Source: Labrys wisconsinensis
Lineage (GTDB): Bacteria > Pseudomonadota > Alphaproteobacteria > Rhizobiales > Labraceae
Assembly (NCBI RefSeq): GCF_030814995.1
Contig: NZ_JAUSVX010000002.1
Coordinates: 372,001 to 436,000 of the forward strand
Length of the DNA stretch: 64,000 nucleotides
Direction of reading: 5' to 3'
Of this stretch, positions 29,872 to 45,016 are shown one piece after another. The first letter of the stretch is position 1. Each line of letters starts with the position of its first letter. Both the position numbers and the translations under genes were made by a program. The notes below the pieces were generated by a model. That model searched no databases, was not told the DNA's origin, and worked only from the letters and a program-made list of their open reading frames with translations.

Positions 29872-30123
29872 ATGCACAGGCCGAGGATCCGATTCGGCGA
29901 GCGGCATGTCCACCTGCCGCGGTCGCGGGCGCTGCGGCTGCTGGTCGGCGGGCTGTTCGTCGCCGGCGGCCTGCTCGGCTTCCTGCCGATTCTCGGCTTC
30001 TGGATGGTGCCGCTCGGGCTGCTGATTCTCTCGGTCGACGTGCCGGTGGTGCGGCGCTGGCGCCGGCGGGCGGCGGTGTGGTGGGCGCGGCGGCGACGCG
30101 CCCGGCAGGGCCTCAGGCCTTGA
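29872..30123 (+). CDS. Small membrane protein with Arg-rich C-terminus
   Basis: This protein of 83 residues carries [22 protein letters not shown] followed by two hydrophobic segments ([19 protein letters not shown] and [18 protein letters not shown]) and a strongly basic tail. Similar short proteins are common in Rhizobiales but have no known function. The ATG at 29872 follows GGCGGGG; an earlier in-frame ATG at 29836 is possible. Its last 11 bases overlap the convergent phaC end. Confidence 0.7.
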
Positions 30124-31927
30124 TCTTCACATAGCTGCCGGGCGCCTCGCCCAGCGGCTTCCTCCGGCCGCCGGGCTTGCGCTTCGCCGCCGCGATGCGC
30201 TCGGGCGCCTGCGCGGTCAGCCAGGCGAGCCAGTCCGGCCACCAGGAGCCGGGATGCTCCTGTGCGCCGGCGAGCCAGTCCTCGTAGGCGCCCTCGGGCG
30301 GGCCGCCGAGCCAGTACTGGTACTTGCCCTTGGCCGGTGGGTTGATCACCCCGGCGATGTGGCCCGAGCCGGTCAGGACATAGCGCACCGGGCCGCCGAA
30401 GGCGGCGGAGCCGACGAAAACCGACTTGGGCGGGGCGATATGGTCCTCGCGCGTCGCCAGGTTGTAGATCGGGATCGTCACCTTCTTCAGGTCCACGGGC
30501 GCGCCGTCGATCTCCATGCGGCCCCGGCTGAGGCGGTTCTCCAGGTAGCAGTAGCGGAGATAGAAGGAGTGGTTCGCCTCGGGCATGCGGGTGGAATCGG
30601 AATTCCAGTAGAGCAGGTCGAAGGGGAAGGGCTGCTTGCCGCGCACATAATTGTTGACCACGTAGGGCCAGATCAGGTCCTGGCTGCGCAGCATGTTGAA
30701 GGCGGCGGCCATCTTCGAGCCGGCGAGATAGCCGTGCTCGGCCATCTTGCGCTCCACCGCCTGGATCTGCTCCTCGTCGACGAACACCTTCAGGTCGCCG
30801 GCATGGGTGAAGTCGACCTGGGTGGCGAACAGCGTCGCCGAGGCGATGCGCCGGTCGCCTTGCGCCGCCATCCAGCCCAGCGTCACCGAGAGCAGGGTGC
30901 CGCCGACGCAATAGCCGATGGCGCTGACGTCGGTCTCGCCGGTGATCTTGCGGATCTCGTCCAGGGCCGCGAGCGGGCCCTCGCGCATATATTCGGCAAA
31001 GCCCTTGCGGCGCTGCTCCGGGCCGGGATTGACCCAGGAGATGACGAAGACGGTGAGCCCCTGCTCGACGCACCAGCGGATGAAGCTCTTCTCCGGGTTG
31101 AGATCGAGGATGTAGAACTTGTTGATCCAGGGCGGGCAGATCAGCAGCGGGCGCTGGTAGACCGTCTCGGTGGCCGGCGCGTATTGCAGGAGCTCCATGG
31201 TCTGGTTGCGGAACACAACCTTGCCCGGGGTGAGCGCCAGGTTGACGCCGACCTCGAACTTGGAGGCGTCGGACTGGCGCAGCTTGAGGTCGCCCTGGCC
31301 GGCGGCGATGTCCTCGGCCAGCATGTGCAGCCCGCGCACCAGGTTCTCGCCGTTCTCGGCCAGGGTCTGCCGGATCAGCTCCGGGTTGGTGGCGATGAAG
31401 TTGGAGGGCGAGAGCGCGGCCGAGAGCTGGCGGACATAGAAGTCCGCCTTGTGCTTCATGTGCGGCTCCAGGCCCTCGGCGTCCTTCACCAGCTTGTCGG
31501 CCCAGCGCGTGGTGATGAGATAGGCCTGCTTGATCACGTCGAAGAACTGGTTCTCGCTCCATTCCGGCGCCTTGAAGCGCGGGTCGCGCGGGTCCGGCGC
31601 GGCCGCGGGCGCGGCCGGCTCGCCGGCCATGCGCTTGAGCGAGGAGGCCCACAGCTCCATGAAGCCGGAGGCGAGGCGCGACTGCGCCTCCACGGCGCGC
31701 TGCGGGTCCTTCATCCAGTATTCGGCGAGATGGCCGAAGGTCTTGACCGCGTCGGCGATCTCGTCGGTAAGGCCGGTCTTCACCCGCCCGTCCTCGCGCG
31801 GGCGCAGATAGGCCGCCATCGCCTTGCCGCCCTCCTCGATGGCGCGGGCGATGTTGCGCGAGAGCGCTTCGATATCGCCGCCGGCGAAGGTGAAGGGGTC
31901 CTCGGGCGGTTTCCTGTCCTTGTCCAT
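30113..31927 (-). CDS. phaC: Class I poly(3-hydroxyalkanoate) synthase
   Basis: PhaC polymerises (R)-3-hydroxyacyl-CoA into storage polyester on granule surfaces. The 604-residue length fits class I. The lipase-like box GYCVGG has the nucleophile Cys near 340; the Asp lies in REDHIAPP and the His in [30 protein letters not shown] and VISWVNPG are family hallmarks. I place the start at the ATG at 31927, with AAGG upstream; a GTG at 31975 would add 16 residues. Other PHA genes (phaA, phaB, phasin) are not in the window. Confidence 0.96.
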
Positions 31928-32043
31928 GCGGCCTTGGGCTTGACGCGTCGCGTTCTGGGGATCGATCCGGCTCACGGCTTTAAACCACTGTCGGCGGGCA
32001 TCCGCCAGTCGTATAAGCGCTGCGTCATTACAGCGAGGCGACG

Positions 32044-32397
32044 ATGCCGGGCAGAGCCTTCCCGACCCTTCCGATCCTGCTGGCCGCCCTGGCGCTGGCC
32101 GGCTGCGAGACCACGGGCGGGCCCGACGAGACCATGTTCGGCCTGCGGCATGGGCCGCTGCCGTCGCCGCAGCCCTTCGTGGTGGACTCGCGGGGGGCCG
32201 TGCCGCCGGACTATCCCTCCGTCGGCGCCATCCCGCCGGCGCGCCAGGACAAGGTGCTGAGCGTGCCCGAGCGCAAGGCGCTGGAGGACGACCTCAAGAA
32301 CCACCAGGACAAGTCCGCCATCGCGCGGGACGCGGCCAGCACGCCGAAGCAGTGGAAGAAGAAGAAACCGAAGCCGGAGCAGACGCCGCAGACGTGA
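32044..32397 (+). CDS. Small putative lipoprotein
   Basis: This 117-residue protein starts with a lipoprotein signal peptide: [13 protein letters not shown] with the acylation Cys at 21. The mature part is Pro-rich ([20 protein letters not shown]) and ends in a Lys/Pro-rich tail ([12 protein letters not shown]). No function is known. It is divergent from phaC across 116 bases. Confidence 0.75.
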
Positions 32398-32442
32398 GGG
32401 GGCGGGAGCGCCCGTTGCAGGCTGTCCGCCGCGTTCTCTACG

Positions 32443-32480
32443 CCCCCCACTCCTTGCCCTCTACCGCAAGGGGGAGGGGA
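32443..32480. repeat. Degenerate hairpin repeat
   Basis: CCCCACTCCTTGCCCTCTAC and the following CGCAAGGGGGAGGGG form an imperfect stem-loop, a looser member of the type seen at 13991 and 20557. It lies between the lipoprotein and aminotransferase genes. Confidence 0.35.
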
Positions 32481-32615
32481 ATAGTTGCCGCCGCGCCTTG
32501 ACCGCGTCGCCTGCTGCAAAAGCGCGGCGATTTGCCATCGCGGCGGCTTCGTTTGGTCACGAATAGTGCTACAAGGGCTGCCCTCATCGTGAGGCCTCCA
32601 ACCGGAACCCGAGCC

Positions 32616-33833
32616 ATGTCCGACTTCTATTCCACCCGCCGTCTGCCGCCCTACGTCTTCGAGCAGGTGAACCGGGTGAAGGCAGCGGCACGGGCGCAGG
32701 GCGACGACATCATCGACCTCGGCATGGGCAATCCGGACCTGCCGACGCCGAAGTTCATCATCGACAAGCTGATCGAGACGGCCCAGAAGCCGCGCACCAA
32801 CCGCTATTCCGCCTCCAAGGGCATTCCCGGCCTGCGCCGGGCCCAGGCCAACTATTATGCCCGCCGCTTCGGCGTGAAGCTGAACCCGGACACCCAGGTG
32901 GTGGCGACGCTCGGCTCCAAGGAGGGCTTCGCCAACATGGCGACCGCCATCACCGCGCCGGGCGACGTGGTGCTGTGCCCGAACCCGTCCTATCCCATCC
33001 ACGCCTTCGGCTTCCTGATGGCGGGCGGCGTCATCCGCTCGGTGCCGGCCGAGCCGAACGCCGACTTCTTCCGCTGGACCGAGCGCGCCATGAAGCACTC
33101 GATCCCCAAGCCTATCGCCGTGGTGGTGTCCTATCCCGCCAACCCGACGGCGCTGGTGGCCAGCCTCGATTTCTACAAGGACCTCGTCGCCTTCGCGAAA
33201 GCCAACGAGATCTTCATCCTCTCCGACCTTGCCTATTCCGAGATCTATTTCGACGGCGTGCCGACGCCCTCGGTGCTGCAGGTGCCCGGCGCCATGGACG
33301 TGACGGTGGAGTTCACCACGCTGTCCAAGACCTTCTCCATGGCCGGCTGGCGCATGGGCTTCGCCGTCGGCAACGAGCGCCTCTGCGCGGCCCTGGCGCG
33401 GGTCAAGTCCTATCTCGACTACGGCGCCTTCACGCCGATCCAGGTGGCGGCGGCCGCGGCGCTGAACGGGCCGGAAGACTGCATCGTCGAGATGCGCGAG
33501 ACCTATCGCAAGCGCCGCGACACGCTGGTGGAAAGCTTCGGCAAGGCCGGCTGGAAGGTGCCGGCGCCGGCGGCCTCGATGTTCGCCTGGGCGCCGATCC
33601 CGGAGAAGTTCCAGCCGCTCGGCTCGGTGGAGTTCTCCAAGCTGCTGGTCGAGAAGGCCTCCGTCGCCGTCGCGCCCGGCGTCGGCTTCGGCGAGCACGG
33701 CGACGGCTATGTCCGCATCGCCTTCGTCGAGAACGAGCAACGCATCCGCCAGGCCGCCCGCAACATCCGCAAGTTCTTCGACAGCGCCGACCAGACCCTG
33801 CACAACGTCGTGCCGCTGCAGAAGTCGGCGTGA
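32616..33833 (+). CDS. Class I/II aminotransferase (LL-DAP aminotransferase/AlaC-like)
   Basis: This 405-residue PLP enzyme of fold type I has IIDLGMGNPDLPTP, SYPANPTALVA (the Asn-Pro block), SDLAYSEIYFDG (the Asp-Tyr pair), TTLSKTFSMAGWRMGFAVGN with the Schiff-base Lys, and YVRIAFVENEQRIRQA with the carboxylate-binding Arg. In many alphaproteobacteria this gene precedes hom and is annotated as LL-diaminopimelate aminotransferase, though alanine or branched-chain keto acid transamination (AlaC type) is equally compatible. The ATG at 32616 (MSDFYSTRR) is the family start. Confidence 0.88.
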   Translation: MSDFYSTRRLPPYVFEQVNRVKAAARAQGDDIIDLGMGNPDLPTPKFIIDKLIETAQKPRTNRYSASKGIPGLRRAQANYYARRFGVKLNPDTQVVATLGSKEGFANMATAITAPGDVVLCPNPSYPIHAFGFLMAGGVIRSVPAEPNADFFRWTERAMKHSIPKPIAVVVSYPANPTALVASLDFYKDLVAFAKANEIFILSDLAYSEIYFDGVPTPSVLQVPGAMDVTVEFTTLSKTFSMAGWRMGFAVGNERLCAALARVKSYLDYGAFTPIQVAAAAALNGPEDCIVEMRETYRKRRDTLVESFGKAGWKVPAPAASMFAWAPIPEKFQPLGSVEFSKLLVEKASVAVAPGVGFGEHGDGYVRIAFVENEQRIRQAARNIRKFFDSADQTLHNVVPLQKSA

Positions 33834-34219
33834 GGGTTGGGTTGTGACAGCACGAAGCGCGGGGCCGTCGACTGGGGCCGGTGGTCTGCGCCAAGACAGT
33901 CGCCCGTGGTGTTCGCTACGAAATCGAACGATTTCGTCGGGATGGCCGGGTCAAGCCCGGCCATGACGCTGCGGGTGGTGCGGCCGTCTCAGCCCTTGCC
34001 GCCAGGGTTCCGTCATGGCCGGGCTTGACCCGGCCATCCACGCGCGCAGGAAGGGTAGAACGGAGCACCGCCTCATCCGATGGCTTGGGTAGGGCATTTG
34101 CGTTCCATCCGGCGTCTGCCCACCCATTCCCCGCTTCCGCATGCCGCGGTTGCGCGTGCGGCGCTTGATCCTGCGCCCTCGCCGTTGCACAACGGCGCTC
34201 ACTCCCAATCGGAACTCCC
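33834..34219. other. 386-base intergenic region filled with repeats
   Basis: This gap between the aminotransferase and hom holds a perfect small hairpin CGAAATCG-AA-CGATTTCG (33919-33936) and the long inverted repeat described separately. I see no gene, leader peptide or riboswitch. Confidence 0.6.
33940..34039. repeat. REP/BIME-like inverted repeat
   Basis: Two arms of about 29 bases, 33940-33968 and 34011-34039, are near-perfect inverted copies; each contains the palindrome ATGGCCGGGTCAAGCCCGGC or its complement. This repeat type (GGCCGGGCTTGACCCGGCC) is widespread between genes in Rhizobiales genomes. No coding capacity. Confidence 0.8.
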
Positions 34220-35542
34220 ATGCAGGCTCCCCTCAAAATCGGCGTCGCGGGTCTCGGCACGGTCGGCGCCTCCGTGGTGCGGCTGATCGACCGGCGCGCC
34301 AATGCTCTCTCCGCCGCCTGCGGCCGGGCGATCACCGTCCAGGCCGTCTCCGCCCGCTCGCGCGGCCGCGACCGCGGCCTGCCCCTGGAGCGCCTGCGCT
34401 GGTTCGACGATCCGGTGGCGCTGGCGCGCGACCCCGGCATCGACGTCTTCGTCGAGCTGATCGGCGGCGAGGAGGGGCCGGCGCGCGAGGCGGTCACGGC
34501 GGCGCTCGATGCCGGCAAGCCGGTGGTCACCGCCAACAAGGCCCTGCTCGCCCGCCACGGCGTCGACCTCGCCCGCCGTGCCGAGAAGGCCGGCGTCGCC
34601 CTGAATTTCGAGGCCGCGGTCGCCGGCGGCGTGCCGATCGTCAAGACGCTGCGCGAGGGCCTGCTCGGCAACACGATCGAGCGCGTCTACGGCATCCTCA
34701 ACGGCACCTGCAACTATATCCTCAGCCGCATGGAGGCGGAGGGCCTGAGCTTCGAGGCATGCCTGAAGGACGCCCAGCGCCTGGGCTACGCCGAAGCGGA
34801 TCCGACCTTCGACGTCGGTGGCTTCGACACCGCCCACAAGCTCGCCATCCTCACCAGCCTCGCCTTCGGCACCGAGATCGACGCCGAGGCGATCCATGTG
34901 GAAGGCATCACCCAGATCACCCCGGCCGACCTCGCCGCGGCGGACGAGCTCGGCTACCGCATCAAGCTGCTCGGCGTCGCCACGCGCACCGAGGCAGGCG
35001 TGGAGCAGCGCGTCCACCCGACCATGGTGCCGAAATCGGCGCCGATCGCTCAGGTCAACGGCGTCACCAATGCCGTGGCCATCGACGCCGACGCGGTGCA
35101 GGAGCTGACGCTGGTCGGCCCGGGCGCCGGCGGCGAGGCGACCGCCTCGGCCGTGGTCGGCGACATCACCGACATCGCCCGCGGCTTCCGCCCGGCGCCC
35201 TTCGGCGTGCCTGCCGCCGAGCTGGCCAAGCCGGCGCGCGCGCCGATGCAGGCCCACAAGGGCGGCTATTACGTGCGCCTCTCCGTGGTCGACCGGCCCG
35301 GCGCGGCCGCGGCCATCGCCACGCGCATGGCCGAGCGCGCGATCTCGCTGGAATCGATCGTGCAGCGCCGCAAGGGCCGCGTCCACGGCGGCGACGACCC
35401 GGCCAAGGTGGCGGGCTCGGTGCCGGTGATCCTGATCACCTACGCCACCACCGAGGCGGCCATCCGTGCGGCGCTCGAGGCGATGATGAGCGACGGCTAC
35501 ATCGCCGAGACGCCGCAGACCATTCGCATCGAGCGCGAATAG
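34220..35542 (+). CDS. hom: Homoserine dehydrogenase
   Basis: Hom reduces aspartate 4-semialdehyde to homoserine for threonine and methionine synthesis. The 440-residue protein has the NAD(P) motif GVAGLGTVGASVVRLI (8-23), NKALLARHGVDLA, the catalytic region GILNGTCNYILSRM and EADPTFDVGGFDTAHKLAIL, and a C-terminal ACT domain (VVDRPGAAAAIATRMAERAI) for threonine feedback. It is followed after 22 bases by glpX, as in most Rhizobiales. Confidence 0.97.
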   Translation: MQAPLKIGVAGLGTVGASVVRLIDRRANALSAACGRAITVQAVSARSRGRDRGLPLERLRWFDDPVALARDPGIDVFVELIGGEEGPAREAVTAALDAGKPVVTANKALLARHGVDLARRAEKAGVALNFEAAVAGGVPIVKTLREGLLGNTIERVYGILNGTCNYILSRMEAEGLSFEACLKDAQRLGYAEADPTFDVGGFDTAHKLAILTSLAFGTEIDAEAIHVEGITQITPADLAAADELGYRIKLLGVATRTEAGVEQRVHPTMVPKSAPIAQVNGVTNAVAIDADAVQELTLVGPGAGGEATASAVVGDITDIARGFRPAPFGVPAAELAKPARAPMQAHKGGYYVRLSVVDRPGAAAAIATRMAERAISLESIVQRRKGRVHGGDDPAKVAGSVPVILITYATTEAAIRAALEAMMSDGYIAETPQTIRIERE

Positions 35543-35564
35543 ACCGTTTGCAGAGGGGAGGCCC

Positions 35565-36563
35565 ATGTCGGACATCATTCAGGTCAAGCCGAAAGACGTC
35601 ATCGAGCGCATCCTCTCGCTGGAGCTGGTGCGCGTCACCGAGCGCGCGGCGGTGGCCTCGGCCCTGCTGCGCGGGCATGGCGACGAGAAGGGCGCCGACA
35701 AGGCGGCCGTCGACGCCATGCGGCGCGAATTGAACAAGATGCCGATCGACGGCACCATCGTCATCGGCGAAGGCGAGCGCGACGAGGCGCCGATGCTGTT
35801 CATCGGCGAGAAGGTCGGCAACGGCACCGGCCCCAAGGTCGACATCGCCGTCGACCCCTTGGAAGGAACGACGCTGTGCGCCAAGGACATGCCGGGCTCG
35901 ATCGCCGTGATGGCCATGGCCTCCGCCGGCTCGCTGCTCAACGCCCCCGACGTCTACATGGACAAGATCGCCATCGGGCCGGGCTATCCCGACGGCGTGG
36001 TCGACCTCGACGCCGGCGTGGAGGAGAATCTCAACGCTCTGGCCAGGGCCAAGGGCGTCAAGCCGCGCGAATTGACCGCGCTGGTGCTCGACCGGCCGCG
36101 CCATGCCGGCATCATCGAGGCGATCCGCAAGGTCGGCGCCTCCATCCGCATCATCACCGACGGCGACGTCGCCGGCGTGATCTTCACCACCAATCCGCTC
36201 GAGACCGGCATCGACATCTATCTCGGCAGCGGCGGCGCTCCGGAAGGCGTGCTGGCGGCGGCGGCGCTGCGCTGCGTCGGCGGCCAGATGCAGGGCCGGC
36301 TGATCCTCGACACCGAGGCCAAGCGCGAGCGCGCCTTCCACATGGGCGTCACCGACCCCACCAAGAAATACCGCATGGAGGAGCTCGCCTCCGGCGACGT
36401 CATCGTCTCGGCCACCGGCGTCACCGACGGCTCGCTGCTGCAGGGCGTGAAGTTCCGCGGCAACGTCATCACCACCGAGACCATCATCTATCGCTCGCTC
36501 AACGGCACGGTGCGCCGCATCCACGGCGAGCACCGCCAGATGTCGAAGTTCAACCTGGACTGA
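35565..36563 (+). CDS. glpX: Class II fructose-1,6-bisphosphatase
   Basis: GlpX dephosphorylates fructose 1,6-bisphosphate in gluconeogenesis. The 332-residue protein shows the class II hallmarks GTIVIGEGERDEAPML (metal-binding Glu and Asp), IAVDPLEGTTLCA, GPGYPDGVVDLDAG and LGSGGAPEGVLAAAALRC. The ATG at 35565 follows GGGGAGG. It is probably cotranscribed with hom. Its last 14 bases overlap the convergent prephenate dehydrogenase gene. Confidence 0.96.
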   Translation: MSDIIQVKPKDVIERILSLELVRVTERAAVASALLRGHGDEKGADKAAVDAMRRELNKMPIDGTIVIGEGERDEAPMLFIGEKVGNGTGPKVDIAVDPLEGTTLCAKDMPGSIAVMAMASAGSLLNAPDVYMDKIAIGPGYPDGVVDLDAGVEENLNALARAKGVKPRELTALVLDRPRHAGIIEAIRKVGASIRIITDGDVAGVIFTTNPLETGIDIYLGSGGAPEGVLAAAALRCVGGQMQGRLILDTEAKRERAFHMGVTDPTKKYRMEELASGDVIVSATGVTDGSLLQGVKFRGNVITTETIIYRSLNGTVRRIHGEHRQMSKFNLD

Positions 36564-37341
36564 GGGGCGTCGCCAGGGCCCGCGTCGCCTCCAGCAGGCG
36601 GGCCTTGACCTCGTCCACGAACGGGTTCTCCGCCGTGATGGTGCGGAACAGCTCTTCGGAATCGCTGCGCACCACCTCGACCATGCGCGTGAGGTGCTCG
36701 AAGGCCGTCGTGGTCTGGGCGAGCTCGGGCACGTCCATGGCGAGGACGATGCGCGCCAGGAGGTGGGTGAGGCCCTGGACATAGGCCATCTGCCGGTCGT
36801 GCTCCGCCGCCGTGGTGCTGAGCACGGCGAGGCCGAGCTTGCGCTCGAGGAAGCGGGCGACCCGGCCGGTGCTGCGCCCGCGCCCGGCGCAGACCGCGAC
36901 GCGCAGCCCGGCAATGCCACCGGCGCCGCTGCGCGGTCCGAACAGCGGATGGGTGCCGACCACGTCGACATGGTCCGGCAGGTGTTCGAGCAACGTCGCG
37001 AGCGGCTTCTGCTTGATCGAGCAGACGTCGATGACCAGGCTGCCGGGCGCGAGATGCGGCGCGATGGCGCGCGCCACCGCCTCGAGCCGGGGCTGCGGCA
37101 CCGCCAGCACCACCACGGGCTCGGCCGCCGCCGCGGCGAGGTCCGCCGCCTCGACGCCGTGGCGCGCCGCAAGGGCCGGCAGGTCGGGCCTGGGATCGCT
37201 GAGGCGCAGGCGGAAATGGGGGGCGAGATGGGCGATGCAGAAGGTGCCGAAGGCGCCGGCGCCGATCAGGCCGAGGCCGGGCCGCGCTGGTGGCGGCGCC
37301 AGGGCGGGCGCTTCATCATCGAGGAGGGTCTGCGTGAACAT
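36550..37341 (-). CDS. tyrA: Prephenate dehydrogenase (short TyrA type)
   Basis: This 263-residue NAD(P)-dependent enzyme of tyrosine synthesis has the Rossmann motif GLIGAGAFGTFC (near 24-35), VVLAVPQPRLEAV, DVCSIKQKPLATL, and VVGTHPLFGPRSGAGGIAGL with the substrate-binding His, then the all-helical dimerisation domain (EHDRQMAYVQGLTHLLAR). It lacks a chorismate mutase or ACT domain. The ATG at 37341 is the family start. Its leader carries a Tyr-Tyr peptide and a terminator hairpin, so attenuation by charged tRNA-Tyr is the likely control. It interrupts the otherwise conserved order hom-glpX-recJ. Confidence 0.88.
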   Translation of the reverse strand: MFTQTLLDDEAPALAPPPARPGLGLIGAGAFGTFCIAHLAPHFRLRLSDPRPDLPALAARHGVEAADLAAAAAEPVVVLAVPQPRLEAVARAIAPHLAPGSLVIDVCSIKQKPLATLLEHLPDHVDVVGTHPLFGPRSGAGGIAGLRVAVCAGRGRSTGRVARFLERKLGLAVLSTTAAEHDRQMAYVQGLTHLLARIVLAMDVPELAQTTTAFEHLTRMVEVVRSDSEELFRTITAENPFVDEVKARLLEATRALATPLSPG

Positions 37342-37384
37342 CGGGGGTCCATGGGGCTGGTGCGCGCCGCATGGGGGATTTCGC

Positions 37385-37414
37385 AAAACGAAAATGCCGC
37401 CCGGCGGCGGCATT
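37385..37414 (-). terminator. Attenuator hairpin before tyrA
   Basis: On the minus strand the arms AATGCCGCC (37414-37406) and GGCGGCATT (37401-37393) pair perfectly around a four-base loop and are followed by TTCGTTTTG. This T-rich tail makes it an intrinsic terminator placed between the leader peptide and the tyrA start. The 5' arm can pair instead with GCGGCA at 37440-37435, an antiterminator. Confidence 0.75.
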
Positions 37415-37442
37415 GTTTCGACGTGATCGATCCCTGCCGCTC

Positions 37443-37490
37443 CTATGAGGACAGGCGGTAATAGCTGTTGAGGGGCCGGGTCGCGATCAT
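37443..37490 (-). CDS. Leader peptide of the tyrA attenuator
   Basis: A 15-codon frame, ATG at 37490 to TAG at 37443, encodes MIATRPLNSYYRLSS with adjacent TAT-TAC Tyr codons at 37463-37458. GGGAG lies nine bases upstream. CCTGTCCTC right after the Tyr codons (37455-37447) can pair with GGAGCGGCAGG (37443-37433), which in turn can pair with the terminator 5' arm. This is the classical order 1:2, 2:3, 3:4 of transcription attenuators. A ribosome stalled at Tyr codons would free segment 2 and let tyrA be read. Confidence 0.75.
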   Translation of the reverse strand: MIATRPLNSYYRLSS

Positions 37491-37936
37491 GGCTGTGATC
37501 TCCCAGGAAACGGCCGAGACGTCAAGAGCCGCTTTGCGCTATGAGGCGTGCATGACGGGCAGCGATCGAATCCTCACCGTGGGCTGCGCAGGCGCCGAGA
37601 TAGGGCCGTCCGGATGCGGGATGAGGCGCCGAGAGCACCATAGCGCGCGAAAGCCTTCCCCACGAAGCTGGGGAAGGTGTCGATCCGAAGGATTGACGGA
37701 TGGGGTGCGGTCCGCAGGGCTCGCCCGGTATTCGGCTTGCATGGACGTCCGTGCAGGTCTTGCAAGCGACGGGTCCTGCCCGCCACACCCCATCCGACCC
37801 GACTTCGTCGGGCCACCTTCCCCAGCTGCGTGGGGAAGGCTTTGGGTTGCGCCCCGTTTTGCACCGCTTCCTGCCCGTAGCGCGCGTCGTGCGCCCGTCG
37901 CGGCAGGCCGCCCCTCTCCCATGGGAGCTGCATCCC
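37491..37936. other. Intergenic region with large inverted repeat before recJ
   Basis: Outside the tyrA leader and the repeat at 37650-37843, the remaining sequence holds no recognisable gene. It includes the presumed tyrA promoter near 37500-37560 and the start region of recJ. Confidence 0.5.
37650..37843. repeat. RIME-like long inverted repeat
   Basis: Outer arms at 37650-37679 and 37814-37843 are near-perfect inverted copies; each arm itself is a hairpin built from CCTTCCCCA and TGGGGAAGG. Inner parts (GGATGGGGTG and CACCCCATCC, GTCCGCAGG and CCTGCCCGC) also pair loosely, so nearly 200 bases could fold into one structure. It resembles mosaic intergenic elements of rhizobia. No coding capacity. 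Confidence 0.75.
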
Positions 37937-39739
37937 ATGCTTGACACGCCGGCGCGGCGCGCCTTCCTCGGGGTCGAGTCCTCCTTCACCGGCAAGGCCT
38001 GGCGCGACAGGCTCGGTGGCGCGGCGGCGGCCCAGGCCGTCGCCATCGCCCAGCGGCTCGGGGCGCCGGAGCTGCTCGGGCGCATCCTCGCCGGCCGCGG
38101 TGTCTCGGCCGACCAGGCGGAGGCCTTCCTCGATACCTCGATCCGGCGCTGGATGCCCGATCCCTCCACCCTCACCGGCATGGACGCGGCGACGGAGCGG
38201 CTGGCGCGCGCCGTGACGGAGCGCCAGCGCGTGGCGATCTTCGGCGATTACGACGTCGACGGCGCCACCTCCTCGGCCCTGCTGGCCGGCTGGCTGCGCC
38301 AGGTCGGCATCACGCCGAAGATCCACATTCCCGACCGGATCTTCGAGGGCTACGGCCCCAATGTCGACGCCATCCGCGGCTTGCGGGCCGAGGGCGCGGA
38401 CCTGCTGGTCACCGTCGACTGCGGCACGACCAGCCTGGAGACGCTGGCGGAGGCGCGCCGCATCGGCTTCGACACGCTGGTGATCGACCATCACCAGGCC
38501 GGCGAGCTCCTTCCCGAGGCGGTGGCGGTAGTCAACCCCAACCGGCTCGACGACCTCTCCGGGCAGGGGCACCTCGCCGCCTGCGGCGTGGTCTTCCTGT
38601 TGCTGGTCGCGGCCAACCGGAGCCTGCGCCGGCTGGGCTTCTGGTCGCCGGAGCGGCCGGAGCCGGACCTCGTCGCCATGCTCGACCTCGTCGCCCTCGG
38701 CACCGTGGCCGACGTGGTGCCGCTACGCGGTCTCAACCGCGCCTATGTCGTGCGGGGCCTGGCCACGCTGCGCCGGCGCGCCCGGCCGGGTCTCAGGGCG
38801 CTGATGGACGTGGCCCGGCTCGACGGCCCGCCGCTGCCCTACCATCTCGGCTACCTCCTCGGGCCGCGCATCAATGCCGGCGGGCGCATTGGCGACGCCG
38901 CCCTCGGCGCCCGCCTGCTCCTGACCGAGGACGAGGCCGAGGCGGCGGCGATCGCCGCGACGCTCGACCGCCTCAACCGCGAGCGCCAGACCATCGAGGG
39001 CGCCATGCTGGAGGAGGCGCTGGCCGAGGCCGAGGCGGGGCTCGGCCGCGAAGGGCAGGGGGCCGCGGTGGTCACGGCCTCGGAGAGCTGGCATCCCGGC
39101 GTGGTCGGCCTGATCGCCGCGCGCCTGAAGGAGCGCTACGGCCGCCCCGCCTTCGCCATCGCCTTCGGCCGCGACGGCGTCGGCGCCGGCTCCGGCCGCT
39201 CGATCGCGGGGGTCGATCTCGGGCGGGCGGTGCAGGCAGCCCTGGCGGCCGGCCTGCTGGTCAAGGGCGGCGGCCACGCCATGGCTGCCGGCGTGACGCT
39301 GGCGCGCGCCGATCTCGGCCGCTTCCGCGCCTTCCTGGAAGAGCACCTCGCCGTGGCGGTGACCGCGGCCAAGGCCGCGGCGGCGCTGGAGATCGACGGC
39401 GCGCTCTCCGCCTCCGGCGCGACGCCCGAGCTGATCGAGACGGTGGAGCGGGCCGGCCCCTTCGGCCAGGGCAACCCGGAGCCGGTCTTCGCCCTGTCCT
39501 CGCACGTGGTGGCGCTGGCCCAGGAGGCCGGCGGCGCGCATCTGCGCCTGCGCCTCAAGGCCGCCGACGGGGCCGTGCTCGACGCCGTCGCCTTCCGCGC
39601 CCTCGGCCAGCCGCTCGGCGAAGCCCTGATGCGCCGGCGCGGCAGCCCGGTCCACATCGTCGGCACCCTCGGCATCGACCGCTGGGGCGGCCGCGAGCGG
39701 GTGCAGATGCGCGTGATCGACGCAGCCGCGCCGGGGTGA
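37937..39739 (+). CDS. recJ: Single-stranded-DNA-specific exonuclease RecJ
   Basis: RecJ is the 5'-3' exonuclease of the RecF recombination and mismatch repair pathways. The 600-residue protein shows the DHH-family motifs FGDYDVDGATS (Asp104, Asp106), LVTVDCGTTS (Asp161) and VIDHHQAGE (DHH at 184-186), then GPRINAGGRIGDA and the DHHA1 motif VKGGGHAMAAG, with a C-terminal OB fold. The ATG at 37937 was chosen by family start; longer frames run back into the repeat. Confidence 0.96.
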   Translation: MLDTPARRAFLGVESSFTGKAWRDRLGGAAAAQAVAIAQRLGAPELLGRILAGRGVSADQAEAFLDTSIRRWMPDPSTLTGMDAATERLARAVTERQRVAIFGDYDVDGATSSALLAGWLRQVGITPKIHIPDRIFEGYGPNVDAIRGLRAEGADLLVTVDCGTTSLETLAEARRIGFDTLVIDHHQAGELLPEAVAVVNPNRLDDLSGQGHLAACGVVFLLLVAANRSLRRLGFWSPERPEPDLVAMLDLVALGTVADVVPLRGLNRAYVVRGLATLRRRARPGLRALMDVARLDGPPLPYHLGYLLGPRINAGGRIGDAALGARLLLTEDEAEAAAIAATLDRLNRERQTIEGAMLEEALAEAEAGLGREGQGAAVVTASESWHPGVVGLIAARLKERYGRPAFAIAFGRDGVGAGSGRSIAGVDLGRAVQAALAAGLLVKGGGHAMAAGVTLARADLGRFRAFLEEHLAVAVTAAKAAAALEIDGALSASGATPELIETVERAGPFGQGNPEPVFALSSHVVALAQEAGGAHLRLRLKAADGAVLDAVAFRALGQPLGEALMRRRGSPVHIVGTLGIDRWGGRERVQMRVIDAAAPG

Positions 39740-39802
39740 GCGGATCGGTCGCCGTCGCCCTTTGCTCGCCCGCCGCGCTTGACGCCGCATCCCTGCTGTG
39801 CG

Positions 39803-39833
39803 TAGCTAGTCAAGCCGGCGCATAGCTAGTCAA
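39803..39833. promoter_or_regulatory. Direct repeats TAGCTAGTCAA upstream of the ABC operon
   Basis: TAGCTAGTCAA occurs at 39803-39813 and again at 39823-39833, 20 bases (about two helical turns) apart, some 115 bases before the transporter ATPase start. The phasing suggests a dimeric regulator bound on one face. No regulator gene lies next to the operon. Confidence 0.5.
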
Positions 39834-39945
39834 TGGCGCAAAGACGCCGGATTCAGGGTCAGGAAACGCGAAATGGGCTGCGATCCTCGCGCGCAGATGG
39901 CCATTGTCGGCGACGGGGCGGCGTGAGCCGGCAGGGAGCTTCGCC

Positions 39946-41478
39946 ATGGCCGAGCCGCAACCCGACGCCGTGCCGACGCTGCGCATTCGCGGCATCGGCA
40001 AGTCCTATGGGCCGACGCGAGTCCTCTCCGACATCAGCTTCGACATCGTGCCGGGCCGCGTCCACGCCCTGGTCGGCGAGAACGGTGCCGGCAAGTCGAC
40101 CCTGGTCAAGATCATCACCGGCATCGTCGCCGCCGACGAGGGCGAGGTGCTGCTGGAGGGGCGGCCGGCGGCATTCCCTTCGCCGATCGAGGCGCGGGCC
40201 GGCGGCGTCTCGGCGGTCTACCAGGACCCGAAGCTGTTCCCGCACCTGGACGTCGCCGAGAACATCTTCATCGGCAATTTTCCGAAGACCGCCATCGGCA
40301 CGGTCGACCGCGCCGCCATGGTCCGCGGGGCGCGCCAGGCGCTCGCCCGCCTCGGCGTCGATCTCGATCCGCGCTCGCTGGTGGCGGCGCTCTCCATGGC
40401 GGAGCTACAATTCGTCGAGATCGCCCGCGCGCTCTCCACCGACGTCAAGCTGCTGATCCTCGACGAGCCGACCTCGCCGCTGACCCCGGCCGAGGCCGAG
40501 AAGCTGTTCTCCATCGTTCGCACGCTGCGCGCCGCCGGCAAGTCGATCCTCTTGATCACCCATCGCCTGGAGGAGGTCGAGGCCATCGCCGACGACGTCA
40601 CCGTGCTGCGCGACGGGCGGCACGTGGCGACGCGGCCGGCGCGGGCGCTCGACCGGGCCGGCATCGTCGGCCTGATGGTCGGGCGCAGCGTCGAGACGCT
40701 GTTCGCCCGCAGCCGGGCCGCGCCCAAGGGCGAGGAGGTGCTGCGGGTCGAGGGCCTCGGCCTCGCCGGCAGCTTCGCCGACGTCTCCTTCACGCTCCGG
40801 GCCGGCGAGATCGTCGGCATGGCCGGGCTGGTCGGCGCCGGCCGGTCCGAGATCGCCCAGGCCGTGTTCGGCATGACGCCGCCGACCGCCGGGCGGGTGC
40901 TGGTCAAGGGTCGCGCGGTGGTGCCGTCCAGTCCCGAGCGCATGCTCGGCCTCGGCGTCGCCTATCTGCCGGAGGATCGGGACGGGCAGGGGCTGATCAT
41001 GGCCGAGAGCGTCGGCGACAACGTCACCCTGCCGATCGCCGGGCGCCTCGCCCGCTTCGGCTTCCTCGCCCGTCGGCGCCAGGAGCGCATCGCCGAGGAG
41101 GCGGTCGCCACCTACAAGGTGCGCACCACCGGCATCGAGCAGATCGTCTCGGCGCTGTCGGGCGGCAACCGGCAGAAGGTCGCCTTCGCCCGCTGGCTGG
41201 CGACCAGCCCGGCGGCGATGCTGCTGGACGAGCCGACCCATGGCGTCGACGTCGGCAGCAAGGCGCAGATCCACCAGATCATCCACCAGCTCGCCGCCTC
41301 GGGCCTGGCCGTGCTCATGATCTCCTCCGACCTGCCGGAGGTGCTGGCGATGAGCGACCGCATCCTCGTCGTCGCCGAGGGCCGGATCGTGGCGGAGCTC
41401 GACGGCGAGGGCGCGACCCAGGAGGCGGTGATGCGGGCGGCGACGCGGAGCGGGGAGGCGGCCCATGCCCTCGCCTGA
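39946..41478 (+). CDS. Sugar-type ABC transporter ATPase (double NBD)
   Basis: This 510-residue protein has two fused nucleotide-binding domains, as in RbsA, LsrA and RhaT. The first has GENGAGKS (44-51), LSMAELQFVEIARAL and LLILDEPTSPLTPAE; the second has degenerate Walker A VGAGRSE, LSGGNRQKVAFARWL and LLDEPTHGVDVGSK. The ATG at 39946 follows AGGGAG. It starts a four-gene transporter set; its stop overlaps the next gene by 14 bases. Confidence 0.94.
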   Translation: MAEPQPDAVPTLRIRGIGKSYGPTRVLSDISFDIVPGRVHALVGENGAGKSTLVKIITGIVAADEGEVLLEGRPAAFPSPIEARAGGVSAVYQDPKLFPHLDVAENIFIGNFPKTAIGTVDRAAMVRGARQALARLGVDLDPRSLVAALSMAELQFVEIARALSTDVKLLILDEPTSPLTPAEAEKLFSIVRTLRAAGKSILLITHRLEEVEAIADDVTVLRDGRHVATRPARALDRAGIVGLMVGRSVETLFARSRAAPKGEEVLRVEGLGLAGSFADVSFTLRAGEIVGMAGLVGAGRSEIAQAVFGMTPPTAGRVLVKGRAVVPSSPERMLGLGVAYLPEDRDGQGLIMAESVGDNVTLPIAGRLARFGFLARRRQERIAEEAVATYKVRTTGIEQIVSALSGGNRQKVAFARWLATSPAAMLLDEPTHGVDVGSKAQIHQIIHQLAASGLAVLMISSDLPEVLAMSDRILVVAEGRIVAELDGEGATQEAVMRAATRSGEAAHALA

Positions 41479-42484
41479 GGCGGCACCCCGCCGCAGCATC
41501 GCCGACCTGGCGCTGCGCCTGCGCCTCAGCGGCGTGATCGTGTTCCTCCTGCTGCTCGGCCTCGCCTTCTCGCTCCTGACGCAGCAGTTCCTGAGCTGGC
41601 AGAACCTCGGGGTGATCGCCGCCAACGCCGCCATCCTCGCCATCGTCGCGGCCGCCCAGTCGGTGGTGCTGCTGACGCGCAACCTCGACGTCTCGGTCGG
41701 CTCGATCATGGGCTTCGCCGCCTATCTCACCGCCGACTACGCCGCCCATCATCCCGCCGGCGGCGTCGAGATCGTGCTGATCGCCCTGGCGCTCGGCGGC
41801 CTCCTCGGCCTGATCAACGGCCTGATCGTCGCCTATGCGGAGGTCTCGCCGCTGATCGCCACGCTCGGCACCATGTCGCTCTATCGCGGCTTCACCTACA
41901 TCTACGCAAACGGCCAGGAGATCACCTCCAGCAAGCTGCCGCGCTGGATGCTGGAGGCGGTCGATGCGCGCATCGCCGGGCTCTCCTCGCTGGTGGTGGT
42001 GGCGATCGTGGTGGTCGGCCTGCTGGCGCTGTTCCTGCGCTTCGTCCCGCTGGGACGGCGCATCTACGCGGTCGGCTCCAACCCGCTGGCGAGCCTGTTC
42101 TACGGCCTCCGGACCGAGCGGGTGGTGCTGTTCGCCTATATCCTGGCCGGCGTGATGTGCGGCTTTGCCGGCCTGCTCTATGCCGCCCGCGTCGGCACGG
42201 TCACGGTCGTCCTCGCCTCGGGATGGGAGCTGACCTCGCTGGCCGCCGCCGTGCTCGGCGGCGTCAGCGTCGCCGGCGGCTCCGGCTCGGTGATCGGGGC
42301 GGCGCTCGGCGCCGTCGTGCTCGCCACCATTGACAACGGGCTCGTCCTGCTCGGCATCCCGGAGTTCTGGCGCATGTTCGTGCAGGGCTCGGCCATCGTG
42401 CTCGCCGTCGCGGTCGACGTGGTCATCGGCGCGCAGATCCGGCGCAGCCTGCGCCGCCGGCGCTTCGGCGGGAGGCTGGCATGA
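41465..42484 (+). CDS. Sugar ABC transporter permease 1 (RbsC/LsrC-like)
   Basis: This 339-residue membrane protein of the BPD_transp_2 type has about eight to ten hydrophobic helices, an NLDVSVGSIMGFAAYLTAD stretch and the ATPase-contact loop GRRIYAVGSNPLASLFYGL. SVAGGSGSVIGAALGAVVLA near the end is typical of ribose/AI-2/rhamnose permeases. It overlaps both the ATPase gene and the second permease gene, so the set is one operon. Confidence 0.92.
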   Translation: MPSPEAAPRRSIADLALRLRLSGVIVFLLLLGLAFSLLTQQFLSWQNLGVIAANAAILAIVAAAQSVVLLTRNLDVSVGSIMGFAAYLTADYAAHHPAGGVEIVLIALALGGLLGLINGLIVAYAEVSPLIATLGTMSLYRGFTYIYANGQEITSSKLPRWMLEAVDARIAGLSSLVVVAIVVVGLLALFLRFVPLGRRIYAVGSNPLASLFYGLRTERVVLFAYILAGVMCGFAGLLYAARVGTVTVVLASGWELTSLAAAVLGGVSVAGGSGSVIGAALGAVVLATIDNGLVLLGIPEFWRMFVQGSAIVLAVAVDVVIGAQIRRSLRRRRFGGRLA

Positions 42485-43512
42485 CGGCGCCCGAACACGT
42501 CAGCCGCCTCTGGCGTCCGAGCGCCTGGGAAGCATTCCTGGTGATCATGATCCTGGTCGCGGGCACCTGGTCCTCGCTGCTGTCGCCCTATTATCTCAGC
42601 TTCGACCAGATCCTCTATTCCAGCCGCCAGTTCCTGATCCCCGGCCTGCTGGCGCTCGGGCTGATGGTGGTGGTGGTCACCGGCGAGATCGACATCTCGC
42701 TGGCCTCGACGCTGGCGGTCGGCGCCGTGCTCCTCGCCAAATGCTCGGCCTTCGGCGTGCCGGTCTGGCTGGCCGCGCCGGCCGTCGTCCTCGTCGGCGC
42801 GCTGCTCGGCGCCTTCAACGGGCTGCTGGTCGCCCGCTTCGGCCTGCCGTCCCTGGCGGTGACGCTCGGCACGATGGGCGCCTATCGCGGGCTCGCCTTC
42901 ATCATCGGCTCGGAGATCGGCTACACCGATTTCGACGATTCCTACCTCTATGTGGGGTCCGAGCTGTTCTTCGAGCTCGTGCCGGTCGCGCTGGTGCTGT
43001 TCACCCTGGTGACGCTCGGCATCGGCGTGCTGATGCACCGCACCGTGTTCGGGCGCCGTTGCTTTGCCGTCGGCAACAACCGCGAGGCGGCCCGGATCGC
43101 CGGCATCGGCGTCACCCGCCTGAAGATCCAGGCCTATGCCCTGGCCGGCGCGCTCGCCGGCCTCGCCGCCCTGGTCTGGATCGGCCAGTACGGCTCGGCC
43201 CGCGGCGACAATGCCGACGGCCTGATCCTGTTCGTCGTCACCGCCGTCGTGCTGGCCGGCGTCGACATCAACGGCGGCAAGGGCACGGTGCTCGGCATGC
43301 TGCTGGCGCTCCTGCTGCTCGGCACGCTGCGCAACGGGCTCGGGCTCGCCAACATCGCCGGCCCGATCCAGACCGTGGTGCTCGGCACGCTGCTGGTGCT
43401 CGGCGTGCTCCGGCCGGTGGCGACCCGGTTGCTCTGGCATGCGCGGCTCCTCCTTTCGCCGCGGCCCGGCTCCGGACCGCGGACCAAGCCGGCGCGATCG
43501 ACCGGCCCATAA
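42481..43512 (+). CDS. Sugar ABC transporter permease 2 (LsrD-like)
   Basis: This 343-residue BPD_transp_2 permease pairs with the preceding one. It shows VVVTGEIDISLASTLAVGAV, GRRCFAVGNNREAARIAGIGV and VDINGGKGTVLGMLLALLLLG. Its ATG overlaps the end of permease 1 by four bases. Two distinct permeases (heterodimer) are found in rhamnose and AI-2 importers, but not in ribose importers with a single RbsC. Confidence 0.92.
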   Translation: MTAPEHVSRLWRPSAWEAFLVIMILVAGTWSSLLSPYYLSFDQILYSSRQFLIPGLLALGLMVVVVTGEIDISLASTLAVGAVLLAKCSAFGVPVWLAAPAVVLVGALLGAFNGLLVARFGLPSLAVTLGTMGAYRGLAFIIGSEIGYTDFDDSYLYVGSELFFELVPVALVLFTLVTLGIGVLMHRTVFGRRCFAVGNNREAARIAGIGVTRLKIQAYALAGALAGLAALVWIGQYGSARGDNADGLILFVVTAVVLAGVDINGGKGTVLGMLLALLLLGTLRNGLGLANIAGPIQTVVLGTLLVLGVLRPVATRLLWHARLLLSPRPGSGPRTKPARSTGP

Positions 43513-43568
43513 CCAGGAGCGGAGCCAATCCGCCGCACGACAAGAACATGGCAAACAGGAGGAACGAG

Positions 43569-44576
43569 ATGAGGACAAGACGTGAAACCCTCGCCCTGAT
43601 GGGCGGTGCCGTGCTCGCCGGCTCCGCTCTGGGGGCGCCGGCTCTGGCCAAGGACTCCGGCTTCAAGCTGATGATGACGCCGAAATGGACCGGCTTTCCG
43701 TATTTCGAGGCCGCGGCCAAGGGCGGCAAGGCGGCGGCAGACGAGCTCGGCGACAGCTTCGTCTATGCCGGCGCCGACCATGCCGACGTCTCCCTGCAGG
43801 TGGAGACGCTGGAGAACTTCCTGACCCAGAAGCCGGACGGCATCATCCTCGCCGCCATCGACCTCAACGCGGTCGCGCCGGTGCTCAAGCAGGCACGCAA
43901 GCGCGGCATCACCGTCACCACCTTCGACGCCGACGCGGCGCAGGACGCCCGCGACATGTTCGTCAACCAGCTCTCCTACGAGCAGGCAGCCCGCACCATG
44001 CTCGACTGCGCGCTGATGGACGCGCCGGCGGGCGGCGAGATCGCCTTCATCGCGGCCTCGCCGACCTCGCCGAACCACACCGCGCACATGAAGATCATGA
44101 CGCAGCTGACGCTGAGCGAGGACAAGTACAAGGTCTTCAAGGTGGTCGACACCCAGTATGCCGGCGACGACGACGCCAAGAGCTACGACGTCGCCAACAA
44201 CCTGATCCAGGCCCACCCCAACCTCAAGGTGATCATCTCGTCCTCGGCGGTCAGCGCGCCGGCGGCGGCCCGCGCCATCGTCGCCGGCGGCCATGCCGGC
44301 AAGGTGTTCGCGACCGGCTTCGCCCTGCCCGCCGCGATCAAGAGCTATCTCGACGACGGCTCGGAGAAGGCCTTCGCCCTGTGGAACCCCTACGAGCTCG
44401 GCTATGTCGCGACTTATGCGACCCACCTCAAGCTCGCCGGCAAGCTCGAGATCAAGCCGGGCGCCACGTTCGAGGCGGGCAAGGCCGGCAGCTACACGGT
44501 CGGGGAGAATGGCGAGATCGTCTACGGCAAGCCGATGATCTTCACCAAGGAGACGGTGGACAAGGCCGGGTTCTGA
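43569..44576 (+). CDS. Periplasmic sugar-binding protein, LsrB/RhaS type
   Basis: This 335-residue type I binding protein has an N-terminal twin-arginine-like export signal (TRRETLALMGGAVLAGSALG). The mature part reads KLMMTPKWTGFPYFEAAAKG, DGIILAAIDLNAVAPVLKQA, TTFDADAAQDARDMFVNQ and ends PMIFTKETVDKAGF, closest to LsrB (AI-2) and RhaS (rhamnose). A Lys near the start and Asp in TFDAD are shared with LsrB, but the Asp-Gln pair that LsrB uses for AI-2 is not obvious, so the ligand is uncertain. It is the fourth gene of the operon. Confidence 0.88.
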   Translation: MRTRRETLALMGGAVLAGSALGAPALAKDSGFKLMMTPKWTGFPYFEAAAKGGKAAADELGDSFVYAGADHADVSLQVETLENFLTQKPDGIILAAIDLNAVAPVLKQARKRGITVTTFDADAAQDARDMFVNQLSYEQAARTMLDCALMDAPAGGEIAFIAASPTSPNHTAHMKIMTQLTLSEDKYKVFKVVDTQYAGDDDAKSYDVANNLIQAHPNLKVIISSSAVSAPAAARAIVAGGHAGKVFATGFALPAAIKSYLDDGSEKAFALWNPYELGYVATYATHLKLAGKLEIKPGATFEAGKAGSYTVGENGEIVYGKPMIFTKETVDKAGF

Positions 44577-44674
44577 TCCCGGGCGTCCACGCCCCGCCTA
44601 GCCTCGTCTCGTCCGGCCGCCGCCCGCGGCCGGGCCGGGCAGCTTATTCCCTGACGTCAGACAAGGACATCGCC

Positions 44675-44986
44675 ATGGCCACGCCGCGCTGCACCCTCAC
44701 CGCCACGCTCCATGCCCGGCCGGAAAAGCGGGACGAGCTCGTCAAGCTCCTGTCGAGCTTCGTCGACCGCTCCCGCGCCGAGCCCGGCTGCATCGACTAC
44801 CACTTCCACGTCAGCGACGAGGATCCCAACGTCTTCTATTTCTACGAGAACTGGACCACGCGCGCCGATCTCGACGTGCATCTGCAGCTGCCCTACCAGC
44901 GCGAATGGTTCGGGCGGCACAAGGAGTTCCTGACCCGGGACGCCGAGCTCAGGTTCTTCACCATGCTCAGCGCCTACGACAAGTGA
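44675..44986 (+). CDS. ABM-domain protein (LsrG/YgiN-like)
   Basis: This 103-residue protein has an antibiotic biosynthesis monooxygenase fold: CTLTATLHARPEKRDELVKL, EPGCIDYHFHVSDEDPNVFYFYENW and YQREWFGRHKEFL. LsrG of the AI-2 pathway and quinol monooxygenase YgiN share it. Its position right after an LsrB/RhaS-like transporter makes a role in processing the imported compound likely, but no kinase (LsrK) or thiolase (LsrF) is present. Confidence 0.85.
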   Translation: MATPRCTLTATLHARPEKRDELVKLLSSFVDRSRAEPGCIDYHFHVSDEDPNVFYFYENWTTRADLDVHLQLPYQREWFGRHKEFLTRDAELRFFTMLSAYDK

Positions 44987-45016
44987 GCCGGCCGCTGCGA
45001 GCAGGGAGGAGAGACG

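Follow-up and report, generated by a model that had tools for sequence, protein, structure and literature searches.

Attenuation by leader peptides is well established for genes of Trp, His, Phe, Leu, Ile/Val and Thr. The pheL and trpL leaders of Escherichia coli carry ribosome sites. In E. coli pheL-pheA and trpL-trp the availability of charged tRNA is read via the leader peptide (available text of PMC11802643). The same text describes AroR of Corynebacterium glutamicum, a Phe-Tyr-Phe leader ahead of the aromatic pathway gene aroF. The trpL mRNA of Sinorhizobium meliloti is leaderless and begins at its AUG (excerpts of PMC7298713 and PMC10117765). For tyrA itself, putative attenuators from the Merino database were listed in 2005: predicted terminator/antiterminator pairs upstream of other tyrA operons, among them Agrobacterium tumefaciens hisHb>tyrA (available text of PMC1173090).

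We describe a leader ahead of a tyrA gene in a 64-kb stretch of Labrys wisconsinensis DNA (the window). The initial annotation had proposed a complete Tyr attenuator here and knew of no described one for tyrA in this bacterial group. Our search of the open literature likewise found no Tyr-responsive leader-peptide attenuator for tyrA; the proteobacterial survey of Vitreschak et al. (2004), outside the scope of that search, may report one. From the comparison of relatives presented below, the leader is probably a Tyr-sensing, ribosome-mediated transcription attenuator.

The leader and its pairing segments

The features of the locus, in the order of transcription, are as follows.

37520..37525, minus strand: TTGACG, probable -35 box, 35 nt 5' of the leader ATG; supported by TTGAC at -34 to -39 in 32/32 leader loci
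37497..37502, minus strand: GAGATC, weak probable -10 box, 17-nt spacer, overlapping the claimed ribosome site; position inferred from the -35 box
37443..37490, minus strand: leader ORF MIATRPLNSYYRLSS, stop TAG; from ORF reading and comparison
37458..37463, minus strand: tandem Tyr codons TAT TAC; YY in 29/32 leader loci, with synonymous variation
37447..37455, minus strand: segment 1 (CCTGTCCTC), partner of segment 2; from the minimum free energy (MFE) fold, the corresponding helix covarying in the relatives called type B below
37433..37442, minus strand: segment 2 (GAGCGGCAGG), whose GCGGCA (37440-37435) is pairable with segment 3
37406..37414, minus strand: segment 3, 5' arm of the terminator (AATGCCGCC)
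37393..37401, minus strand: segment 4, 3' arm of the terminator (GGCGGCATT)
37383..37392, minus strand: T-rich tail TTCGTTTTGC, 6 T among the first 8
36550..37341, minus strand: tyrA, coding for a divergent prephenate/arogenate dehydrogenase of plant type (263 aa); convergent with glpX, with a 14-nt overlap with its end

The leader ORF has 15 codons, from the ATG at 37490 to the TAG at 37445-37443 (ATG ATC GCG ACC CGG CCC CTC AAC AGC TAT TAC CGC CTG TCC TCA TAG). Among ATG ORFs of 12-24 codons with YY placed 2-6 codons before the stop, it is the sole case on either strand of the window. The terminator hairpin (37414-37393) reads AATGCCGCC-GCCG-GGCGGCATT, a perfect 9-bp stem followed by the tail, and GCGGCA of segment 2 is complementary to TGCCGC (37412-37407) of segment 3. 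Reading of the sequence bore out the ORF and its adjacent Tyr codons as initially annotated, as well as the placement of segments 1-4, the complementarity of 2 and 3 and the 3:4 stem with its tail. The locus has three features of ribosome-mediated attenuators: a short ORF in which codons for the regulated amino acid stand in tandem just 5' of the hairpins, an intrinsic terminator (3:4) ahead of the gene, and a downstream gene that, by sequence (PF02153, 5t9f), serves Tyr synthesis.

The terminator is one of two Watson-Crick stems in the window that reach 9 bp and are followed by a T-rich tail; six first-order Markov random strands contain none. Statistics on the window alone are otherwise modest. 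The fold of the 131-nt leader is not exceptionally stable (z -1.32; 18/200 shuffles equally stable); against shuffles, pairing 2:3 has p 0.044, which is marginal, and pairing 1:2 falls short of significance (p 0.23). Such figures are the point in favour of a chance ORF next to the ordinary terminator of an upstream transcript, a reading contradicted by the comparison below (a strict leader rule, covariation, a tyrA-blind pattern and the leader labels on the gene tree) and to which we give almost no credence. Rfam has no match at the leader, to T-box or any other family; within the window the gathering score is reached by four tRNAs and nothing else.

Other repeats in the window were recorded as well. 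The second strong stem with a T-rich tail (37816-37839, plus strand) falls between the leader and recJ, within an imperfect 97-nt inverted repeat (37650-37843) that has no spacer and 71% complementarity. Just 5' of a homoserine dehydrogenase gene, two perfect 29-nt inverted copies separated by 42 nt (33940-34039) form a repeat-like palindrome.

Conservation of the leader in relatives

Of 48 loci of the plant-type TyrA (tblastn, E <1e-25), 32 have an equivalent leader ORF, counting two single-Tyr leaders (L038, L048) that the automatic search missed and that were added by hand. YY is present in 29 of these and a single Tyr in three (L038, L048, L081). The 16 loci lacking the leader are L054, L061-L069, L071-L075 and L077, where L061-L069 comprise eight Planctomycetota and one Gracilibacteria. 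A leader candidate at L062 was a chance match and was dropped. At L072, L073 and L075 another reading frame seems, by eye, to extend to the tyrA start.

Strict rule. We required YY together with TTGAC starting 34-39 nt 5' of the ATG, dropping L054 and L061-L069 to leave 38 loci. The rule is satisfied at 29/38 loci against 1/3800 dinucleotide shuffles (5/3800 for YY alone), and at none of 33 other TyrA-like loci. Comparison of related tyrA leaders had been set beforehand by the initial annotation as one test that could refute it, and for relatives of the gene the claim came through, with the ORF at 32/48 loci and the strict rule at 29/38 against 0/33.

Peptide. The Tyr codon pairs of the 29 YY leaders are TATTAC (17), TATTAT (9) and TACTAT (3), and this synonymous variation points to selection on the amino acid. 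Conservation of the peptide appears confined to its C-terminal YY and to those residues whose codons lie under segment 1. Action in trans by the peptide, or by the terminated leader RNA, is an alternative, as reported for peTrpL/rnTrpL in S. meliloti, where the architecture is similar, a leaderless ORF ending in an attenuator (excerpts of PMC7298713 and PMC10117765); the N-terminal half, however, differs among loci, and we consider such action very improbable.

tyrA-blind pattern. A pattern of promoter box, ATG, Tyr-Tyr and stop, with no reference to tyrA, gave 15 matches in 397 genomes, all just 5' of TyrA matches and none elsewhere; its reverse gave 7. In the genome of the window it matches once, at the studied leader. 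Nine of the 24 known leaders of this sample escape it, and because it was built from leaders already found, the rediscovery is no independent proof; what it adds is the lack of matches elsewhere.

Covariation. The leaders fall into two types. Type A comprises the window, L031, Microvirga L058 and Pseudoroseomonas L059 and L060, five members of which two are nearly identical, with a common terminator around TGCCGCC/GGCGGCA. Type B comprises the other 27, of which 23 were aligned (without L037, L051, L078 and L079). Hairpins were located by a restricted search, in which that of L051 is misplaced and that of L080 is poor; an unrestricted search downstream of the stop for the hairpin of highest stability was rejected, as it mostly chose longer downstream structures and not 3:4. 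Covariation supports helices 1:2 and 3:4 in type B: 93.3% of cells in the 23 leaders are paired, five pairs are changed on both sides, and 0/500 shuffles equal the observed value on any of five measures. Helix 2:3 has 82.5% of its type B cells paired, against 20-67% when slid, but no pair is changed on both sides and shuffles are not exceeded (82.7% mean), so that it is conserved yet unsupported by covariation. Its score over all 32 leaders has a mean of 16.1 against 12.5 in shuffles. Leaders that individually reach p <=0.05 number 8/32 for 2:3 and 6/32 for 1:2. The mutually exclusive pairings initially proposed are in this way backed for 1:2 and 3:4 in type B, while 2:3 has conservation without covariation.

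Probable promoter and leaderless start

TTGAC lies 34-39 nt 5' of the leader ATG in 32/32 loci, and exactly 35 nt in 17, which is where a -35 box would sit for a transcript beginning at that ATG. A Shine-Dalgarno core is found at just 3/32 leader ORFs, against 24/28 tyrA starts. Because of these two observations together, the leader ORF is probably translated from a leaderless mRNA, as is trpL of Sinorhizobium. For the window taken singly this is less certain, as its leader is one of the three with a core (GGGAG) and its -10 box is poor; in several relatives CTATCG- or CTAAGC-like letters were seen by eye near the -10 position. A sigma-70 scan of 30000-45000 detected no promoter. The ribosome site of the initial annotation is present as letters (GGGAG, 37504-37500), but it overlaps the expected -10 region, and its function as a ribosome site is doubtful, since the ORF is probably leaderless.

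A second leader was noted in three congeners (L107-L109), where a WWW-containing ORF, MRISSFSASWWWPV, lies ~180 nt before the fused trpE(G). It is probably leaderless too, and we count it in favour of the Tyr attenuator. TTGTTC at -35 and TAGCAT just 5' of the ATG were seen by eye, and a scripted search found no TTGAC before these leaders. Searching the window's own genome for this leader family gave partial matches, none above the cut-off.

The tyrA gene

The product belongs to Pfam PF02153, and its best PDB relative is the prephenate dehydrogenase 5t9f (E 2.5e-18), a soybean enzyme. The first ATG of the tyrA frame (37413) is within the terminator; the likely start is the ATG at 37341, which matches the start of type A relatives in the alignment. 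It has no clear Shine-Dalgarno sequence.

In the available text of PMC5681985, clade I of TyrA places alphaproteobacteria together with plants, and specificity for arogenate is ascribed to an acidic residue at position 222, with the warning that this position is not assignable in distant TyrA. The window TyrA has Asp at the position aligned to 5t9f chain residue 222, as do all 55 aligned rows. Given that warning, and since ordinary TyrA rows likewise have Asp there, the column is informative for close relatives only. The window TyrA is probably arogenate-using.

An ordinary TyrA is encoded on another contig of the same genome, with no Tyr leader ORF in its upstream region. Ordinary TyrA is present in 29/29 leader-bearing genomes tested (E 1e-113 or better), a test that left out the three named type A relatives (Microvirga and two Pseudoroseomonas). 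Six genomes lacking the leader gave one ordinary TyrA, in G491 (5e-106); in the other five (G526, G684, G701, G709 and G720) no match is better than 3e-12. The hypergeometric value for co-presence of leader and ordinary TyrA is 1.8e-5, in a count that ignores kinship. On these matches the tyrA behind the leader is a second, plant-type copy, extra to the housekeeping TyrA. The initial description of it as a tyrosine biosynthesis gene holds by PF02153 and 5t9f, with the amendment that it is not the housekeeping one.

The window TyrA type is rare. It was not found in four other genomes of the genus at E 1e-15, so the gene with its leader is, on this distribution, a sporadic accessory unit. Matches were found in 31/397 genomes of the order (E 1e-15; the weakest are a more distant TyrA), and in 11/385 genomes of the class and 9/398 of the phylum (E 1e-25; samples overlap). 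A collection of genome contigs gave 13 loci, including Microvirga aerilata, two Pseudoroseomonas and Planctomycetota. An empty-site comparison for tyrA between glpX and recJ failed, as recJ was not detected within ~8 kb after glpX in four congeners. An in-frame TGA is reported within the tyrA matches of L047 and L081.

In the gene tree, type A loci cluster (99/94) although their hosts belong to four families. Presence of the leader follows the tree, with 3 label changes where shuffles need 18.1, a difference to which near-copies contribute. Tree and 55-row protein alignment leave out L047, L061 and L069, whose extracted proteins were too short. Gene and leader appear to move as one unit.

Proposed mechanism

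A Tyr-codon attenuator upstream of tyrA, as first annotated, is the best reading of the locus and is now backed by comparison, with leaders at 32/48 loci and covariation of 1:2 and 3:4. The Tyr-ending peptide, the promoter box and these two helices are conserved; for stalling, formation of 2:3, termination and a response to Tyr we infer the following course.

Start. From the position of the promoter, transcription would start at or next to the leader ATG, giving leaderless translation.

Ample Tyr-tRNA. The ribosome would reach the stop and cover segment 2; 3:4 would form, and the polymerase would halt before tyrA.

Scarce Tyr-tRNA. The ribosome would stall at TAT TAC, covering segment 1; 2:3 would pair before segment 4 exists, and tyrA would be transcribed.

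Masking the window leader is consistent with this course in the nascent RNA, where 2:3 forms with 6.6 expected pairs when the ribosome is on the Tyr codons and with 0.0 when it is at the stop. At equilibrium with segment 4 present, 3:4 wins with the ribosome on Tyr (0.94) or at the stop (0.96); among the 14 of 32 loci listed, 3:4 at equilibrium is 0.65-1.00. Since a ribosome on the Tyr codons does not prevent 3:4 from winning at equilibrium, only a kinetic switch would work: 2:3 would have to form before segment 4 and persist until the polymerase has passed. Since the gene concerned is a second TyrA beside the housekeeping one, such a device would raise the capacity for tyrosine synthesis when needed.

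The output step could differ among lineages. With the same Tyr sensor, the hairpin might mainly block or free translation of tyrA, most likely in type B, where 25/27 tails have 0-3 T in the 8 positions after the stem (exceptions L053 with 4 and L076 with 6) and where several leaders have, by eye, a segment complementary to the tyrA Shine-Dalgarno sequence. This complementarity, however, beats shuffles (p <0.05) in just 3/23 (mean 6.2 against 5.4), too weak for Shine-Dalgarno sequestration to be kept as the general type B output, and the window itself has 6 T of 8 in its tail and no clear Shine-Dalgarno sequence to hide. We regard a mainly translational output as unlikely, and transcription attenuation remains the preferred reading. 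In type A, T makes up 3-6 of the 8 positions in each of the five tails. Since the U-tract is missing after the hairpin of most relatives, their output step may differ, and type B may use another kind of stop or translation.

A wider proposal, which we advance tentatively and at somewhat less than even confidence, is that of a Tyr attenuator family in which one leaderless sensor travels with the plant-type TyrA in alphaproteobacteria, present where this TyrA is a second copy and mostly absent where it is the sole one. Its output would have changed between lineages, from a U-tract terminator in the window's group to a U-tract-less hairpin, which may act on translation, in most others. A single family in which some leaders have a U-tract and some lack it would make a natural series on a change in the output step of an attenuator. 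That the leader goes with an extra, arogenate-type TyrA suggests that constitutive and starvation-induced tyrosine routes coexist in some bacteria.

Comparison with known systems

In its architecture the leader resembles S. meliloti trpL/trpE(G) (peTrpL/rnTrpL), also an alphaproteobacterial, leaderless short ORF with consecutive end-product codons and a terminator before the biosynthetic gene (excerpts of PMC7298713 and PMC10117765). That system has Trp codons and trpE, whereas the leader studied here has Tyr codons and tyrA and is a prediction from sequence. The E. coli leaders pheL-pheA and trpL-trp differ in serving other amino acids. AroR of C. glutamicum is reported to respond when Phe is limiting but not to the supply of Tyr, and it has a single Tyr and belongs to another gene and phylum (available text of PMC11802643). 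The putative tyrA entries of the Merino database are listed as attenuators before gene clusters, and the word 'leader' is absent from the available text of PMC1173090. The leader ORF uORFC-8-2 before cysS of Rhodobacterales is likewise alphaproteobacterial, has two tandem relevant codons and was found by comparison; it pairs Cys codons with cysS, and the available text of PMC8632094 has no tyrA leader. A conserved Tyr attenuator would fill a gap among the amino-acid leader-peptide attenuators. On our best reading the leader studied here joins these known attenuators, and its Tyr specificity is the new point.
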